From Actinomycetota bacterium (GTDB taxonomy: Bacteria; Actinomycetota; Acidimicrobiia; Acidimicrobiales; Ilumatobacteraceae): a DNA stretch of 32,581 nucleotides. Both the position numbers and the translations under genes were made by a program. How positions within the stretch are numbered: position 1 is the first letter of the stretch; the number at the start of each line of letters is the position of its first letter. The stretch is taken from positions 1-32,581 of the forward strand of contig JAPKZV010000227.1 of assembly GCA_026393585.1 (NCBI GenBank), given 5' to 3'. Shown in pieces: positions 2,760 to 13,272 of the stretch. The notes beneath the pieces were generated by a model. That model worked only from the letters and a program-made list of their open reading frames with translations. It was not told the DNA's origin and made no database searches.

Positions 2760-3803
2760 TCACTTTCTCCCCGCGCGGTTACCACGCACGGTGGAACCGG
2801 TAAGCGAGAGATGCGGAATAGCGCCAACATCGAGCCCCGATGGCCCATGATCGCGAAGTCGATACCAACCAGCTGATGCAATCATTGCTGCGTTGTCGGT
2901 ACACATTGCCTTGCTCGGCAAAGCAACATGAAAGCCCGCCGCACTGCCTACTCGCTGCATTTCGCTGCGCAAGAGTGAGTTTGCAGCAACTCCTCCACCG
3001 AGCACAATGCTTTTCGCATCAACTTGTTGCGCTGCTCTCAATGTCTTTGCCACGAGAACATCAACCACTGCGCATTGAAACGAAGCGGCAACGTCATGGG
3101 AAGCGACACCAGGATTTTTGCGGACATAGTTAATGACCGAGGTCTTCAGACCACTGAAAGAAAAATCGAGCCCGTCGTGCAACATTGCTCTCGGAAATTC
3201 AATACTCTGCGGGTTGCCCTGTTGTGCCGCAGCATCGATAGCCGGGCCACCCGGGTAACCGATATCGAGGAAACGAGCGATTTTGTCGAATGCTTCACCT
3301 GCAGCGTCGTCGATTGTTGCCCCCAATAACGAATACTCACCAGGAGCAGTCATGTGAATGAGCAAGGTGTTGCCACCCGATACCAAAAGCACCACCGCAG
3401 GGAATGGCAGCTGTGGTTCTTCAAGAAGCGCTGCGTAGAGATGTGCTTCAAGATGATTCACGCCAATAAAGGGAACATCTAACCCGTAAGCCATTGCCTT
3501 GCCCGCAGAAACACCTACGAGGAGTGCACCAATGAGCCCAGGTCCGATGGTGGTGGCGACTGCATTAATGCGCTCCGCACCAATGCCCGCAAGTTGAATT
3601 GCCTCGTTAATGACAGGTTGGATGAGTTCAAGATGTGCACGGCTTGCAACCTCAGGAACTACTCCACCAAATTTTGCATGGATATCAATTTGGCTAGAAA
3701 CAACCGAGGAGAGAACATCGTTTCCTCCCATCACAATTGCAGCAGCAGTTTCATCGCAGCTGCTTTCAATACCTAGCACGACAGTTGAGTTATCGATGTG
3801 CAT
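2760..3803 (-). CDS. tsaD: tRNA threonylcarbamoyladenosine synthase subunit TsaD (Kae1/YgjD)
   Basis: Transfers the threonylcarbamoyl group to A37 of ANN-decoding tRNAs, acting with TsaB and TsaE. 347 residues. GIESSCDETAAA (residues 11-22) begins the ASKHA fold, the metal-binding HLEAH is at 117-121, and SFSGLKTSV and GGGVAAN lie in the C-terminal half. Start ATG at 3803 is chosen because it places the family N-terminus correctly and overlaps the rimI end by only 14 bases; an upstream ATG at 3848 adds unrelated residues. It sits with tsaE, tsaB and rimI in the normal actinobacterial order. Confidence 0.96.
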   Translation of the reverse strand: MHIDNSTVVLGIESSCDETAAAIVMGGNDVLSSVVSSQIDIHAKFGGVVPEVASRAHLELIQPVINEAIQLAGIGAERINAVATTIGPGLIGALLVGVSAGKAMAYGLDVPFIGVNHLEAHLYAALLEEPQLPFPAVVLLVSGGNTLLIHMTAPGEYSLLGATIDDAAGEAFDKIARFLDIGYPGGPAIDAAAQQGNPQSIEFPRAMLHDGLDFSFSGLKTSVINYVRKNPGVASHDVAASFQCAVVDVLVAKTLRAAQQVDAKSIVLGGGVAANSLLRSEMQRVGSAAGFHVALPSKAMCTDNAAMIASAGWYRLRDHGPSGLDVGAIPHLSLTGSTVRGNRAGRK

Positions 3804-4329
3804 TGGCGCGTTCCATTTCAATTTCGCGCAATCGCGCACCATATTCAAAACTGCTCACTTCATGGCACCACATCACCATGGCATCTTCAACATTTTCGTA
3901 ATACTTCTTGCGCACCCCTGCCGGCACAAAGCCAAAACGCCGATACAGCTCTTGAGCCGGAGTGTTACTCATGCGCACTTCTAGCGTGAGTGCTTGGCAT
4001 TCACGTTCACGGGCTTTCCAAGCAAGTTCCAATAAAAGATCTGTGGCAATGCCGCGCCGTTGCCACTCAGGGTGAACGGCAATGTTGGTGACATGAGCAT
4101 CATCGGGGGTGAACAACAAACCGCCGTACCCCACTACCTCTTCACCAATTTGACCAACGATGTAGAAGCGCTGCTCTCTACGCACTAATTCAATTTCGGC
4201 ATGAAACACTCCGAGCGTCCATGGTCGGGGATACACCACTTCTTCAATTGGCATAATTGCCTTCAAGTGCTTACGGCGCATCGGGATGATGTCGAGTACA
4301 GGCGTGCGCAGTTCATCTGGCTTTCTCAT
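3790..4329 (-). CDS. rimI: RimI-like GNAT N-acetyltransferase
   Basis: GNAT-fold acetyltransferase, 179 residues, named after the enzyme that acetylates the N-terminus of ribosomal protein S18; actinobacterial RimI may have wider targets. The acetyl-CoA loop reads HPEWQRRGIATDLL, preceded by the strand VTNIAV and followed by LEVRMSNTPAQELYRRFGF, all hallmark segments. ATG at 4329 has GGTGAG shortly upstream and lies 5 bases after the tsaB stop. An in-frame start at 4350 would overlap tsaB. The gene is embedded between tsaB and tsaD, as in many actinobacteria. The tail after about residue 150 is longer than in E. coli RimI. Confidence 0.9.
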   Translation of the reverse strand: MRKPDELRTPVLDIIPMRRKHLKAIMPIEEVVYPRPWTLGVFHAEIELVRREQRFYIVGQIGEEVVGYGGLLFTPDDAHVTNIAVHPEWQRRGIATDLLLELAWKARERECQALTLEVRMSNTPAQELYRRFGFVPAGVRKKYYENVEDAMVMWCHEVSSFEYGARLREIEMERANAHR

Positions 4330-4334
4330 GATGC

Positions 4335-5078
4335 TCACCGCGTTAACCACTGAATTTCCGCATCGGGGGCCCGCAGGTAAATGGGGGCAATAGGGCTTCC
4401 CTCTAAACGGCCAGCTGCATATTTCTTGGCCGCAAGCGAAACCAAAGTGGACGCGTGAGGAAGATGCGCATTGAACGCAAAATGACGCACTCCACTGCGC
4501 TCTCCAAGAAGTGCAAGGTCGGGAATTTCAATGAGCGAATCGATGTATTTCACTGCACCAGTTCCGAGCACTACTGACCTTTGTGATCTGTCGAGGAGAT
4601 CTTCAATGAGTTCTTCGACCTCTCCAACACGCGGCTCTCGTATTTCTTCTAATGCCCCACCTGAGGAGTGATCTATACGATGCATCGACCAATACACCTG
4701 GTTGCGTCGAGCATCAAGAATTGGCACAATAATTTCTGCATCATCTAATTCTTGTAACGCAACACGCTCAACACCATGAGCAAGCACTTGCAAACTGTCT
4801 AATCCGATGAGTGGAAGCTCTGCAATGTCTGACAATGTCGAGGCTGTAGTAATTCCGACTCGCATCCCAGTGAAAAGTCCTGGCCCTAGATCTACCGCAA
4901 TGGCACTTATCTCATGAATGCTGATGCCGATATTTCGTAAGAGAAGTTCAATTGCAGGAATGAGTGACTCCACATGGCGCCGATCGCTCGCCAGTTGAAA
5001 ACTTGCAGAGATGCTTTCGTCATCTCCAACGGCAACACTCACTTGTTCGCTCGATGTATCGATACCTAGAATTTTCAT
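4335..5078 (-). CDS. tsaB: tRNA threonylcarbamoyladenosine complex subunit TsaB (YeaZ)
   Basis: Inactive ASKHA-fold partner that dimerises with TsaD in t6A synthesis. 247 residues. The N-terminus ILGIDTSSEQVSVAVG and the later DLGPGLFTGMRVGI match the family; as expected for TsaB, the HxExH metal site of TsaD is absent. Its ATG overlaps the tsaE stop in an ATGA arrangement (4 bases), so translation is probably coupled. Confidence 0.94.
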   Translation of the reverse strand: MKILGIDTSSEQVSVAVGDDESISASFQLASDRRHVESLIPAIELLLRNIGISIHEISAIAVDLGPGLFTGMRVGITTASTLSDIAELPLIGLDSLQVLAHGVERVALQELDDAEIIVPILDARRNQVYWSMHRIDHSSGGALEEIREPRVGEVEELIEDLLDRSQRSVVLGTGAVKYIDSLIEIPDLALLGERSGVRHFAFNAHLPHASTLVSLAAKKYAAGRLEGSPIAPIYLRAPDAEIQWLTR

Positions 5079-8140: not shown

Positions 8141-8506
8141 TTAGGAAGCGGCAACAACTGCCACTGCAACAATGTGTGTATGGCTGAGAGATACCCGCCA
8201 CTGCGTAATACCAAGTTGGTCAGCTAGTTCTTGAGCACGACCAGAAACAATGAGTTCAGGAGCGCCCGAAGCGGCTTTACGCAAAGAAACATCATGAAAG
8301 TCAAATGCCCCCAAGCCCACACCGAGTGCTTTCATAGTTGCCTCACGCACTGCGAATCGTGCCGCTAACGCTGCAGTTGCATCTTTTCGAGTGTCGGCAA
8401 GTTCAAGCTCTGCACTGGTAAATACTCGAGTCTTGAGCGATGGAGTACGGCTCAATACGTCGCGAAAGCGTTCAATATCTACAGCATCTACCCCAAGCCC
8501 AATCAT
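8141..8506 (-). CDS. acpS: Holo-[acyl-carrier-protein] synthase
   Basis: Transfers 4'-phosphopantetheine from CoA to acyl carrier protein. 121 residues. MIGLGVDAVDIERF carries the Mg-binding Asp (residue 7). The second signature reads ARFAVREATMKALG, in which the usual Lys before Glu-Ala is Arg; the Glu that binds metal is present. ATG at 8506 overlaps the stop of the preceding glmS half by four bases (ATGA), which makes it a better start than the in-frame ATG at 8524. Confidence 0.94.
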   Translation of the reverse strand: MIGLGVDAVDIERFRDVLSRTPSLKTRVFTSAELELADTRKDATAALAARFAVREATMKALGVGLGAFDFHDVSLRKAASGAPELIVSGRAQELADQLGITQWRVSLSHTHIVAVAVVAAS

Positions 8507-10389
8507 GATTGCTGGGTCTGCCATCTGTTTGCAGTATCAGAGATCGGCAAGATGAGAGCATCGACAACATCGATGTCGGCAAGAAGGTCGTCGCGGAACT
8601 CGCTTTCAGTTTCTTTCACCCAGTCGACGAGCCGGTTGTAGCGGTCGTCATAGCCTTGCAGAACCGATTTCATCACACTTGCACTGAGTCGTTGCGCAAA
8701 GGTGACATGCAGCAATGTGATTCCTGTTGTTTCGCCAGACTTCAATTCAGGTATGAAAATAACAGTGCGATTATCGGATCTTCCGCGAGCGACTAATACT
8801 TCTTGGTTGCTAGCGACGCGGTGTTTTGTTCCGACCAAGCGAGCAACTCCATCTACTCGCGATTTCAAATCAAGTGAAATACCACCGCGCTCAATAATGG
8901 AAATATTGGCTTCATCAATTTCGCTACCATCTATGCCGTAGCGCGTGAACCCGTTCACTGAAAGAACGGCGGCATCGAGATCGGCCAAAATTTTGAGTGT
9001 GCGATACGCGAGGCGATCTCGCGAAACACCTGCGGCTAAGACTGCTTGTACCAAGGCTCGATCCATGAGGCCTTCATCGTTACGCGAGATTCCTACTGTC
9101 ACTGTTTTTGCTTGATGCTTAATGGCATCAATGGGTCGAGTGAGTTCATCAATTGCCTTCGTTAAAGCATTAATGAGATCGTCAAGCAAGACGGCAGGAG
9201 TAACTACTTTTCCAGAGTGGCGCTGATAAGCATCAATTGGGTCTTTCGACAAAACATCGTAGAGAATTGACGTTAAACGCACTGCTGTTGAAGCCTCGAG
9301 CGTTCCGTCGTATTGCCCCATTGAAAGTGCGTCGAAGAATCGCCCTGCAGGTTGTACAGCATGGCGGCGAATGTGTGTAACCACCTGCGTTGACTCTGTG
9401 TAAGTACCCGCAATTTCTTTGATGGACTCGCGGATTTCGCGCAAGGGTCGAGCTGTTGCATCGATAGCGAGTGCTGCTTCGTACCCGAAGAGATGCCCAA
9501 CCATGGCCGAAAGTATGAAAGCAACCGACGGGTCTACTTCTGGAACCATTAAGACAGCCGACGCCGCATCGAAACGCTGGTCGCCACGTGTAGCCACAAC
9601 GATTGGAGTTGCCTTATGCGCCTTATAGATGGCAATTTCTTTTGCCACGTCTGCTGCTGTGCCACCAACAAGCCCAGCGGCACAGACCAAAATCATTGGC
9701 TCGCAAGAAAGATCAATATGCTTTTTGTCTTCTGTGATGTCACAAGAAATTGATTTGTAACACAATTCAGAAAGTTTGATACGCACTTCGTTCGCAGAGA
9801 CCGCATTGGGGCCATTGCCCACGACGGCCCAATATCTTTTCGCCGGAGCGAATCGATGCGCTGCTTCGGCAATTTGTGGTCGCTCACGAATCACTTCGCG
9901 CATCGCATCGGGAATGGACTTCAGAGAATTCAATACACGATGGCGAGCTTGACTGCTCCCTACACCTGCTGCAGCAGAAATGGCACAAGAAAGTAAAACT
10001 CCGGCTGCCACTTGTGCATAAAAAGCCTTTGTGCTCGCCACGCTCATTTCAAGATCGCGCCCGTCTGATGTGTACAACACGCCATCGGCTCGCATCGCAA
10101 GGTCTGAATTACGACGATTCACAATTGCAATAACGTGAGCTCCACGGCCACGCGCAAGATCGACTGTTCTATTGGTGTCGGTTGTGGTTCCACTTTGGCT
10201 TACTGCAATCACCAACGTGTCGCTCATATCGGTCAAAAGACCAAACCCGGAAAACTCAGTTGCAGTTAACGCATCGACATCGAAGGCGTCTTCAGACAAA
10301 GAATTAAGAAGTGCCACCATGCTGCTTCCTGCAACTGCAGCAGTTCCTTGACCAATAACTCGAATACGTCGAATTTTGCGTGATACCAA
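8503..10389 (-). CDS. glmS: GlmS-like protein, C-terminal part: two SIS (isomerase) domains plus long unknown tail
   Basis: Sugar-isomerase half of a glucosamine-6-phosphate synthase-like enzyme, 628 codons. SIS domain 1 has GQGTAAVAG (14-21), SQSGTTTDT (64-72) and VASTKAF (117-123). SIS domain 2 has GNGPNAVSANE (191-201) and a DKKHIDL segment (221-227) matching the catalytic ELKHGPLAL region. The usual GlmS C-terminus ending in LAKSVTVE is not recognisable; instead about 300 further residues of no recognised family follow residue 330. The frame is continuous with the glutaminase half upstream: only one TAA (10390-10392) separates them. The first possible start is TTG at 10389, directly after that stop, and no strong ribosome binding site precedes it. 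The next ATG would delete the first SIS motif. Expression by coupled re-initiation, by readthrough, or loss of function are all open. Confidence 0.85.
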   Translation of the reverse strand: MVSRKIRRIRVIGQGTAAVAGSSMVALLNSLSEDAFDVDALTATEFSGFGLLTDMSDTLVIAVSQSGTTTDTNRTVDLARGRGAHVIAIVNRRNSDLAMRADGVLYTSDGRDLEMSVASTKAFYAQVAAGVLLSCAISAAAGVGSSQARHRVLNSLKSIPDAMREVIRERPQIAEAAHRFAPAKRYWAVVGNGPNAVSANEVRIKLSELCYKSISCDITEDKKHIDLSCEPMILVCAAGLVGGTAADVAKEIAIYKAHKATPIVVATRGDQRFDAASAVLMVPEVDPSVAFILSAMVGHLFGYEAALAIDATARPLREIRESIKEIAGTYTESTQVVTHIRRHAVQPAGRFFDALSMGQYDGTLEASTAVRLTSILYDVLSKDPIDAYQRHSGKVVTPAVLLDDLINALTKAIDELTRPIDAIKHQAKTVTVGISRNDEGLMDRALVQAVLAAGVSRDRLAYRTLKILADLDAAVLSVNGFTRYGIDGSEIDEANISIIERGGISLDLKSRVDGVARLVGTKHRVASNQEVLVARGRSDNRTVIFIPELKSGETTGITLLHVTFAQRLSASVMKSVLQGYDDRYNRLVDWVKETESEFRDDLLADIDVVDALILPISDTANRWQTQQS

Positions 10390-11928
10390 TTACTTGACTA
10401 CGTCTTTCGGTAAAACATCTTCGTCAAGGTCTGCTGCACAAACACCATTAACTTCGTGAATGCGACCACGCAACGTTTTACGGAAGCTTTCAGGTGCTTC
10501 AAGAATTTCTTTCAACAAGAAGTGTGGCGATGTTCCGCGGTCGATATCGCGCGTTGTTACTCCAGCATCGACAACGTCATTACTTGTGACCGGCAGAGAG
10601 GATCCGTCGTAACTCACGCGTTCCATGCCTGCGATATTTCCGGCATTACTTGCTAGCAGTTGAATAACCTGCCCGCGGCTTGCAGGTTGGTCGGGTGACA
10701 CCAACGACTCACCATCCATGCGCACGATGTTTACTGTGTCTTCGACTGTTCCATAGGGCTCGCTAGCAACAATGAACCGATCTTCGGCGAGACCAATACA
10801 CATACCTTGGCCGCTCCCGCGCAAGGCAAGCATCACACTGTCGGGGTGATCGACACTCAATGCAGCAATAGCCACTGAACCGTCGAATTGTGTTACTGCA
10901 TTGAGGAAACTTTGTTGCAGTGGTTGGCCTGCTTGTAAACCACGGGCAACCAAACTGGGAATGACTTTGGCATCGGTGGTGATGGAAGCTGCTACAGAAA
11001 TATCGTGTTCCACTTTGAGATCTGCGTAATTGTCGACATCGCCATTTAAAACCGCCAAAACCAGAGGCTGTTTTTTGTTGACTTCTTCGCCAGTTACAGG
11101 ATGCGCATTGGGCTCAGAAATAATTCCAACACTTGCCCAGCGCGTATGCCCGATGACACTGACCTGTGCATTTTTTGCTGAGACAACACGTCGCAACAAA
11201 GCATCTTGCAGAATATGTTGCCGCATGGTTTTTGTGTTGTCGCCTAGTTCACCAATTTCTGCTGCCGCCTTGTACACAAATACCCAGGCATCACCTTCTA
11301 CACGCACAGAGCGTGAGGTAAAGAGAGCATCTTCATGACGTGGAACAAATGCATTTCGTAATGCAGGGTCGCCCAACACCACATCTTCGGTAAGGCCATG
11401 GCCCCATACCACTACACCGATGCCGGCGGAATCTCTGCCACGGACTTCCATACGGTCGATAGCGGAGAGAGCTTGTTGAATGGAGAGATAGCCATGAAGT
11501 GACTCTTCAGATGCATGCATTCCGGCAAGCAAGGAAACTTCGCGTGCGGTACGTAGACGATCTTCAGATATTGACCACAGCGCATCTTTGATTGCAGAAA
11601 CGGTGTGCGACGCATTCTCAATGAGATGTGCATCTTGGCTTGCCTCCAACGCAGCTTCGTACTTCTCTACTTGAGGAGCCAATTTCGCCAGCGCAGCGCG
11701 AACGCCGTCGACCAACTCTGGGCTACCCACCATGGCACGAACCCCAGCGTCGCCTTTGAGCAAGGTATTGACTGCTTCGAGCGCCTCGGCGGCACGTTCT
11801 GCACTCGTGAAGTCGGTTGAAGCATGCTCCATCAGAGTTTGAGCTTCAAGAAACTGATTAAAAATATCGTCGTGTGTAGGGGTGGCGCGGTCGCCTTTAC
11901 GGCTGAGGACACAGATAATTCCACACAT
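10390..11928 (-). CDS. glmS: GlmS-like protein, N-terminal part: class II glutamine amidotransferase domain with large helical insertion
   Basis: Glutaminase half of a glucosamine-6-phosphate synthase-like enzyme (fructose-6-phosphate plus glutamine to glucosamine-6-phosphate). 512 residues. The nucleophile Cys2 is in MCGII; RGRDSAGIGV (163-172) replaces RGYDSAG; GHTRWAS is at 260-266; NGDVDNYADL replaces NGIIENY. In ordinary GlmS the DSAG motif is near residue 30, so about 130 residues rich in Ala, Glu and Leu (roughly 20-155) are inserted and look alpha-helical. The end, FLLKEILEAPESFRKTLRGR, is the normal join to the SIS domains, but a TAA stops it about 25 codons later. glmM lies 9 bases upstream, so substrate supply and use are adjacent. 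Confidence 0.88.
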   Translation of the reverse strand: MCGIICVLSRKGDRATPTHDDIFNQFLEAQTLMEHASTDFTSAERAAEALEAVNTLLKGDAGVRAMVGSPELVDGVRAALAKLAPQVEKYEAALEASQDAHLIENASHTVSAIKDALWSISEDRLRTAREVSLLAGMHASEESLHGYLSIQQALSAIDRMEVRGRDSAGIGVVVWGHGLTEDVVLGDPALRNAFVPRHEDALFTSRSVRVEGDAWVFVYKAAAEIGELGDNTKTMRQHILQDALLRRVVSAKNAQVSVIGHTRWASVGIISEPNAHPVTGEEVNKKQPLVLAVLNGDVDNYADLKVEHDISVAASITTDAKVIPSLVARGLQAGQPLQQSFLNAVTQFDGSVAIAALSVDHPDSVMLALRGSGQGMCIGLAEDRFIVASEPYGTVEDTVNIVRMDGESLVSPDQPASRGQVIQLLASNAGNIAGMERVSYDGSSLPVTSNDVVDAGVTTRDIDRGTSPHFLLKEILEAPESFRKTLRGRIHEVNGVCAADLDEDVLPKDVVK

Positions 11929-11937
11929 AGGAGTACT

Positions 11938-13272
11938 TTACCTGTCTTGCCCAGAGGCAGGGTGGCTCAACATTTGGGCAATGCGTTCGGCATATTCTTG
12001 GGCTTCTGTCGATGTTTGAGCTTCCACCATGACACGCACGAGCGGCTCGGTTCCGCTCGCCCGCACCAACACTCGCCCTTTGCCATCGAGCAACTGTTCT
12101 ATTTCAGAAATAGCTGCACGATTCTTGAGCAACAGATCTTGCGGTGCGATACCCCCCTGTATGGGCACATTAATGAGCACTTGCGGAAGTGACGTCATGA
12201 CCTCTTGTGCTGCTGTTCGCAAATTTTGTTGCCGAGAATGAAGTACGGAAAGAAGTTGCACAGCAGCAAGCAAGCCGTCGCCAGTAGTTGCATGTTGTGT
12301 AAAAACAATGTGGCCACTTTGTTCGCCACCCAAGCAAGCTTGTGCTTCTTGCAAGGCCAGCAGTATTGATCGATCACCAACGGGAGTGACAAGTACATCA
12401 ATGCCGGCATTTTGCATGGCGATATGAAAACCCATGTTGGTCATCACGGTCACCGCAACAGCGTTGTTTGCGAGGGCATTACGCGCTTTGAGTTGTAGCG
12501 CAAAAAGTGCGATGAGTTGATCGCCGTTGACCACTTCGCCATTGCCGTCGACGGCAATGATGCGGTCGCCATCGCCATCAAATGCAATTCCGAGATCTGC
12601 CTTGCTGCGTATTACTTCTTGCATTAACGACTCAGGGTGGGCTGCACCACAAGCTTCATTAATGTTTTTTCCATCGGGTGAGCAGTGAATAAAACTCGGG
12701 CTCATCCCCAGTTTCTTAAAAACTCGCGGCGCAACTTCGCTCATGGCTCCGTTGGCACAATCAATAACAAGTTTGACTTCGGTTGCAACTTCCGTGATAG
12801 ATGCACAAACATGTGCGCAATATGCATCGAGGTCTAATGCGCCTTCCTCGGCACCCGCATTGACGAGCTCTGTTGTTTCGCTTTGCACAAGCGCTTCATA
12901 AGTATTTTGAATACGCGATTCTTGGTCGTCGGTGAGTTTGATTCCACCCTCACCAAAGAACTTCAATCCATTATCTGTATAGGGGTTATGCGAGGCGGTA
13001 ATGACCGCAGCACCTGCCAGACAATGTTCGGCATAGAAGGCAACCGCAGGTGTGGGGCACATTCCGGCCCACAAGACCTCGACGCCTTCGGCAATAAAGC
13101 CAGCTTCTACTGCGCGCGCAAGTGGAACGCTTGATTCACGGGTATCGAAGCCAACAACAAAAAGCGAGCAACGAAGTTCACGCGCAGCTGCGCGGGCATA
13201 TAACTGAACGGCATGAGTGGTGATGTCGCGAAGTGCAACGCCACGAACTCCGTCGGTGCCGAACCGCAGCAA
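11938..13272 (-). CDS. glmM: Phosphoglucosamine mutase
   Basis: Interconverts glucosamine-6-phosphate and glucosamine-1-phosphate on the way to UDP-GlcNAc. 444 residues. FGTDGVRG is at 4-11, the phosphorylated active-site serine is S94 in TASHNPYTDNG, the metal loop is FDGDGDR, and the phosphate-binding RASGTEPLVRV is near the C-terminus. The start must be TTG at 13272: the rpsI stop lies in the same frame only three codons upstream and no ATG or GTG is available nearby. It sits between rpsI and glmS. Confidence 0.96.
   Translation of the reverse strand: MLRFGTDGVRGVALRDITTHAVQLYARAAARELRCSLFVVGFDTRESSVPLARAVEAGFIAEGVEVLWAGMCPTPAVAFYAEHCLAGAAVITASHNPYTDNGLKFFGEGGIKLTDDQESRIQNTYEALVQSETTELVNAGAEEGALDLDAYCAHVCASITEVATEVKLVIDCANGAMSEVAPRVFKKLGMSPSFIHCSPDGKNINEACGAAHPESLMQEVIRSKADLGIAFDGDGDRIIAVDGNGEVVNGDQLIALFALQLKARNALANNAVAVTVMTNMGFHIAMQNAGIDVLVTPVGDRSILLALQEAQACLGGEQSGHIVFTQHATTGDGLLAAVQLLSVLHSRQQNLRTAAQEVMTSLPQVLINVPIQGGIAPQDLLLKNRAAISEIEQLLDGKGRVLVRASGTEPLVRVMVEAQTSTEAQEYAERIAQMLSHPASGQDR

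Follow-up and report, generated by a model that had tools for sequence, protein, structure and literature searches.

An interrupted reading frame between glmM and acpS

The window (the whole stretch of DNA analysed here, 32,581 nucleotides) comes from a fragmented draft genome of the family Ilumatobacteraceae according to the GTDB. On its minus strand, from 11928 to 8506, it carries a single reading frame consisting of 512 codons, a TAA and a further 628 codons, with that TAA as the only interior stop. Read on the minus strand, the junction is ...GTC AAG TAA TTG GTA TCA CGC.... A first-pass annotation, made from the letters alone, had described this stretch as one gene cut by a single in-frame TAA with TTG as the very next codon, a description that held, the interrupted frame being 99% identical to the nearest uninterrupted member of its family. 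The features of the locus are as follows.

11938..13272, minus strand: glmM (phosphoglucosamine mutase), directly upstream and coding for the next step of the pathway (NCBIfam TIGR01455)
11928-10390, minus strand: first open frame including the TAA (10393..11928 without the stop), 512 amino acids, starting MCGII (ORF)
10393..11928, minus strand: first piece, an Ntn-type glutaminase domain (Cys2 nucleophile) followed by ca. 47 residues from the start of the isomerase domain (ORF, PDB matches to GlmS and AlphaFold2 model; boundary inferred)
11449..11901, minus strand: helical insertion in the glutaminase domain, at about residues 10 to 160, not in E. coli GlmS (model helices at 19 to 160; E. coli GlmS gapped in the alignment)
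10390..10392, minus strand: in-frame TAA where the nearest relative has a Leu codon (most likely a draft error)
10387..10389, minus strand: TTG immediately 3' of the TAA, with zero codons between them
8506..10389, minus strand: second piece, 628 amino acids, with tandem SIS (isomerase) domains, a C-tail motif and a C-terminal extension (own stop at 8505-8503)
9991-10377, minus strand: PF01380 (SIS) match within the second piece (Pfam)
9139..9459, minus strand: helical insertion, ca. 107 residues long, that separates the second SIS domain from the C-tail motif (alignment with E. coli GlmS; model helices)
9094..9138, minus strand: C-tail motif RPIDAIKHQAKTVTV, aligned with E. coli ...AKSVTVE (alignment; low model confidence here)
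8506..9093, minus strand: conserved C-terminal extension of ca. 196 residues, without a convincing Pfam match
8141..8524, minus strand: acpS (holo-ACP synthase), which overlaps the second piece at its end (TIGR00516, 76.7 bits, above cut-off)

For the second piece, the TTG at 10387-10389 is the sole in-frame start that retains the first SIS motif, GQGTAAVAG (codons 13 to 21); as had been noted from the letters, the next in-frame ATG (codon 24) lies beyond it. In the near relatives, this TTG corresponds to an ordinary Leu codon.

The glmM gene scores 441 bits against TIGR01455, slightly below the cut-off of 447.55. Downstream of the interrupted gene come acpS, an NAD(P)HX repair gene and alr, and this neighborhood, together with glmM, fits a cell-wall sugar locus. 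An Rfam scan of the window gave no family at the gathering score, and the glmS ribozyme was not seen.

A divergent long form of GlmS

In NCBIfam and the PDB, the matches of the two pieces fall in opposite parts of glucosamine-6-phosphate synthase, and the interrupted frame is one gene that codes for a divergent GlmS of 1141 residues. The GlmS-like identity given by the first-pass annotation stood, but the protein is not a standard GlmS; it is a long form with extra segments. Since the whole interrupted frame reaches only 233.8 bits against TIGR01135 (the GlmS equivalog), below the cut-off of 418.05, we use the name GlmS-like and do not count the protein among the tested members of that family; the other long forms listed also score under this cut-off.

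The residues expected of a glutaminase are strictly kept. M1, C2, G3, I4, H261, T262, R263, W264, N295, G296 and D319 are invariant in 41 sequences, a set chosen for a start codon followed by Cys (which holds for 66 of 67 near-complete loci), and Cys2 and the glutaminase motifs line up with E. coli GlmS. On the isomerase side, positions 714, 718, 721, 737 and 941 of the frame align with E. coli 482, 486, 489, 505 and 604, residues whose catalytic roles we take as given, and their counterparts in the second piece (E201, K205, E208, H224 and K428) do not vary across 57 long sequences, one of them from the window. The C-tail Lys is the second one in RPIDAIKHQAKTVTV; its E. coli counterpart in the alignment is K604 (603 in the numbering of the mature protein). 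Judging from these conserved residues, Cys2 would free ammonia from glutamine, and the SIS domains would isomerize fructose-6-phosphate and add the ammonia to it.

Predicted structures agree with this assignment. The AlphaFold2 model of the first piece (pLDDT 87.7) has as its best match the glutaminase domain of E. coli (1xff_B, Z 29.5, rmsd 1.9, 234 residues aligned), and that of the second piece (pLDDT 85.1, pTM 0.64) matches best the SIS domains of GlmS, with Z of about 30. Pfam recognizes one SIS domain only, and the tandem SIS fold comes from the match of residues 1 to 311 of the second model with the E. coli SIS chain 7dnr_B (Z 30.4, rmsd 2.7, 297 aligned). The loop bearing the C-tail Lys is modeled with low confidence. 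For the C-terminal region, a Pfam scan of 22 members over 8536-9468 gave a best E-value of 0.026 and a sequence search of the PDB a best E of 2.3, neither of them convincing; structure searches were run with the whole second half and barely probe the C-terminal extension.

Compared with E. coli GlmS (b3729) and the GFAT family (TIGR01135), the long form shares the Cys2 nucleophile, the HTRWA, NG and TD motifs, the SQSG motif of the SIS domain, and the E, K, E, H and C-tail K found at E. coli 482, 486, 489, 505 and 604. It differs in size (1141 versus about 609 residues in E. coli), and the surplus includes the helical insertion in the glutaminase domain, the insertion of ca. 107 residues before the C-tail and the C-terminal extension of ca. 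196 residues. The interruption by a TAA at this site is a further difference, found in this record only.

The TAA in relatives, other lone stops in the draft and their origin

A search with the second half found a match in 60 of 61 genomes (its own included), seven of these matches being weak and to shorter proteins; the genus relative G002, with no match there, gave a weak one in the family search described below. In family members without an interruption, a single open frame runs for 1108 to 1256 codons, except in G007, where a contig end cuts it at 733. The first-pass annotation had called for an alignment with the closest relatives, and in that alignment none of the 11 genus relatives covering the site has a stop there. 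The codon is Leu in six and Ser in one of the seven closest genomes, and Glu in four more distant ones. In the nearest relative, G004 (99% protein identity), it is a Leu codon from which TAA is one substitution away.

Wider searches gave a similar picture. From a GTDB scan, the best 80 of 573 relatives were kept, some of them also present in the genome set compared above; 74 cover the site, and the aligned parts of these best 80 of 573 loci contain no interior stop. In the family search, 210 of 221 genomes gave a match. Among the 150 of these 210 that were listed there were 10 stop flags, eight of them terminal and two interior (this genome and G241); the search with the second half also flagged the order-level match G059. 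G241 is another fragmented draft, and on its contig C81 the same gene has a lone interior TAG, which lies 333 codons into the match and at a different place from the TAA described here. As separate observations, the long glmS of GTDB locus L080 has a frame break and is split between two frames, and that of G046 (L182) is also split between two frames.

Substitutions in the gene are largely silent. Compared with G004, this genome has 71 synonymous and 9 nonsynonymous differences in the first piece, and 84 and 4 in the second. Of the changes that it alone carries in a set of eight near genomes, 15 are synonymous and 1 is nonsynonymous (the TAA was left out of this last count because one relative differs at that position). 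The mostly synonymous change after the TAA, and the lack of any further stop inside the second piece, speak against a decaying pseudogene.

The test that decided between the explanations was a survey of lone stops elsewhere in the same draft, in which the counts are small. The sample comprised 37 contigs (whole or their first 20 kb) totaling 248 kb, of which 36.6 kb are N and 212 kb unmasked, and was compared with 80 stretches of G004, aligning over 64.5 kb at 93.4% identity. Seventy ORFs of G004, some of them spurious, had a homologue in the sample at an identity of at least 85%. Nine flags resulted; four were dropped and five breaks, glmS included, were left, while pyrC was found separately. 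Besides glmS, three genes of the 212-kb sample (efp, pyrC and one that is ygfZ-like) each have a lone in-frame stop, and two more have frame breaks. The efp gene (contig C2, about 4422-4982) is interrupted by a TAG, its halves matching positions 1 to 59 and 62 to 184 of TIGR00038; it is present as a single copy in the draft, has two further amino acid changes within ten codons after the TAG, and is uninterrupted in all 12 of the other genus genomes. On the same contig, pyrC (about 1088-2413) is cut by a TAA into halves that match positions 9 to 287 and 289 to 429 of the dihydroorotase model; it is uninterrupted in the 10 other genus genomes with an above-cut-off match, a match that G004 and G007 do not have. 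The ygfZ-like gene (contig C23, about 3274-4077), compared with G004 only, has an early in-frame TAG. The two frame breaks relative to G004 lie on contigs C29 (about 4984) and C9 (about 1408), one lacking about 88 bases and the other 2.

Of the four dropped flags, one was a stop that precedes the probable real start (L257_2688), two concerned ORFs regarded as spurious on account of their frame and sequence (L145_1647 and L144_14403), and the last an ORF taken to be antisense solely because of where it lies (L144_13712). The reverse comparison, in search of breaks in G004, gave four flags: two, on contig C73 (L257), are scaffold joins made of ten Ns with duplicated bases on either side, and two fall within one ORF (L187, 85.5% identity). 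Leaving L187 aside as a low-identity candidate, the G004 sample has no clear base-level break. A scan of our own sample for in-frame ORF pairs flagged 17, mostly neighboring genes; the L181 pair was rejected as an interrupted gene, its halves matching two different families, and the L186 pair was left out of the family test. There was no base-damage signature in the form of a G>T excess (62 versus 70, counting nonsynonymous differences in single-difference codons between this genome and G004).

Because the relatives are whole at this locus and similar lone stops occur in other housekeeping genes of the draft, the TAA is most likely a draft error. We consider it very probable that the living species has an intact, probably essential long-form GlmS and that the TAA is a single-base error of the consensus, the source of which would be low coverage, mixed strains or read error. 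The stop would then be absent from the organism itself, and among the genomes compared it is private to this record. In-frame stop and frameshift errors are found in metagenome-assembled genomes, and the breaks seen here resemble them in being lone, private and unconserved, scattered across conserved genes of one fragmented draft, although here the cause is one that we infer. The TAG of G241, at another point of the same gene, is what random errors would give. Against an error, the glmS locus shows no other suspicious change and its local error rate is not high, and such errors are not in every draft, as the sample of G004 illustrates.

The first-pass annotation had offered sequencing error side by side with recent mutation, readthrough and fission; the first of these is now favored, and the weight placed on re-initiation, fission and loss of the gene has not survived the uninterrupted genus relatives and the other stops of the draft. 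A real nonsense mutation of recent date, present in the cells sampled or in part of their population, leaving an allele that is dead or kept only with external uptake of amino sugars, would agree with a TAA one substitution away from the Leu codon, in a gene that is otherwise intact and without other decay. It is nevertheless unlikely, as three more conserved genes of this record, efp, pyrC and the ygfZ-like one, would have had to acquire their stops just as recently. Fresh stops arising at once in several conserved genes of a free-living cell are far less likely than a few wrong bases, and for this reason we prefer the latter. A true fission of the gene, with re-initiation at TAA/TTG giving a separate glutaminase and isomerase, can draw on the TTG directly after the stop and on the catalytic residues kept in both pieces. 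Yet the 45 bases before the stop contain no clear Shine-Dalgarno-like sequence (the lack of a good ribosome-binding site for the second half had been noticed before), the TTG is a plain Leu codon in unsplit near relatives, and the split is seen in no genus relative. Besides, the join had been placed in the normal linker, which proved incorrect: codons 512 to 514 align with E. coli GlmS residues 288 to 290, and with the isomerase domain starting near residue 241 (inferred from the 368-residue length of the crystallized construct 1moq), the cut falls ca. 47 residues inside that domain and not at its boundary, so that the second piece would miss the start of its own domain. We therefore give fission hardly any credence.

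The number of lone stops in the draft could in itself suggest that they are translated, either by readthrough or through a UAR suppressor tRNA, to give full-length GlmS and full-length efp, pyrC and ygfZ-like proteins, all four being UAR, with zero UGA, in otherwise conserved frames of one genome. But efp and the ygfZ-like gene have their stops at Glu codons of G004, from which one change can lead only to TAA or TAG, and thus the missing UGA says little (the pyrC codon fell outside this comparison). In addition, the stops of glmS, efp and pyrC are not conserved in relatives, TAA or TAG is the terminal codon of several ordinary neighboring genes in the window, and 31 of the 36 tRNAs were read, all with ordinary anticodons and none for a stop (five were unread, in a draft that is 83% complete). 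Readthrough is consequently a very improbable account of the TAA, and we attach scarcely any probability to the broader proposition that the stops are real and that several essential genes (glmS, efp, pyrC and the ygfZ-like gene) are decoded by an unrecognized readthrough or suppressor mechanism. Preferring a draft error keeps an essential gene from being wrongly reported as lost or split. By extension, a lone stop in this draft should be given no biological meaning unless reads back it.

Long and canonical glmS across the class

The first-pass annotation had seen no other glmS, and none was found in the draft either: a profile search returned one SIS match and one glmS match, both of them this gene. 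With the draft at 83% completeness a second copy may have been missed, but the distribution of the two forms in the class makes this less likely. Across the class, 57 of 148 genomes have the long form and 83 a canonical glmS above the cut-off, with none having both and eight having neither. Given that no genome combines the two, the long form most likely performs the GlmS job in the 57 genomes that have it, judging from gene content. Like the GlmS/GFAT enzymes, it adjoins glmM, and it occurs in the place of canonical glmS. A useful by-product of this analysis is therefore a long GlmS, with conserved segments of its own, that apparently replaces the ordinary enzyme in part of the class; we found no publication on such a protein among literature listings and the openings of abstracts. 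In wider draws of genomes, its C-terminal region was matched in 115 of 296 from the class and in 27 of 296 from the phylum.
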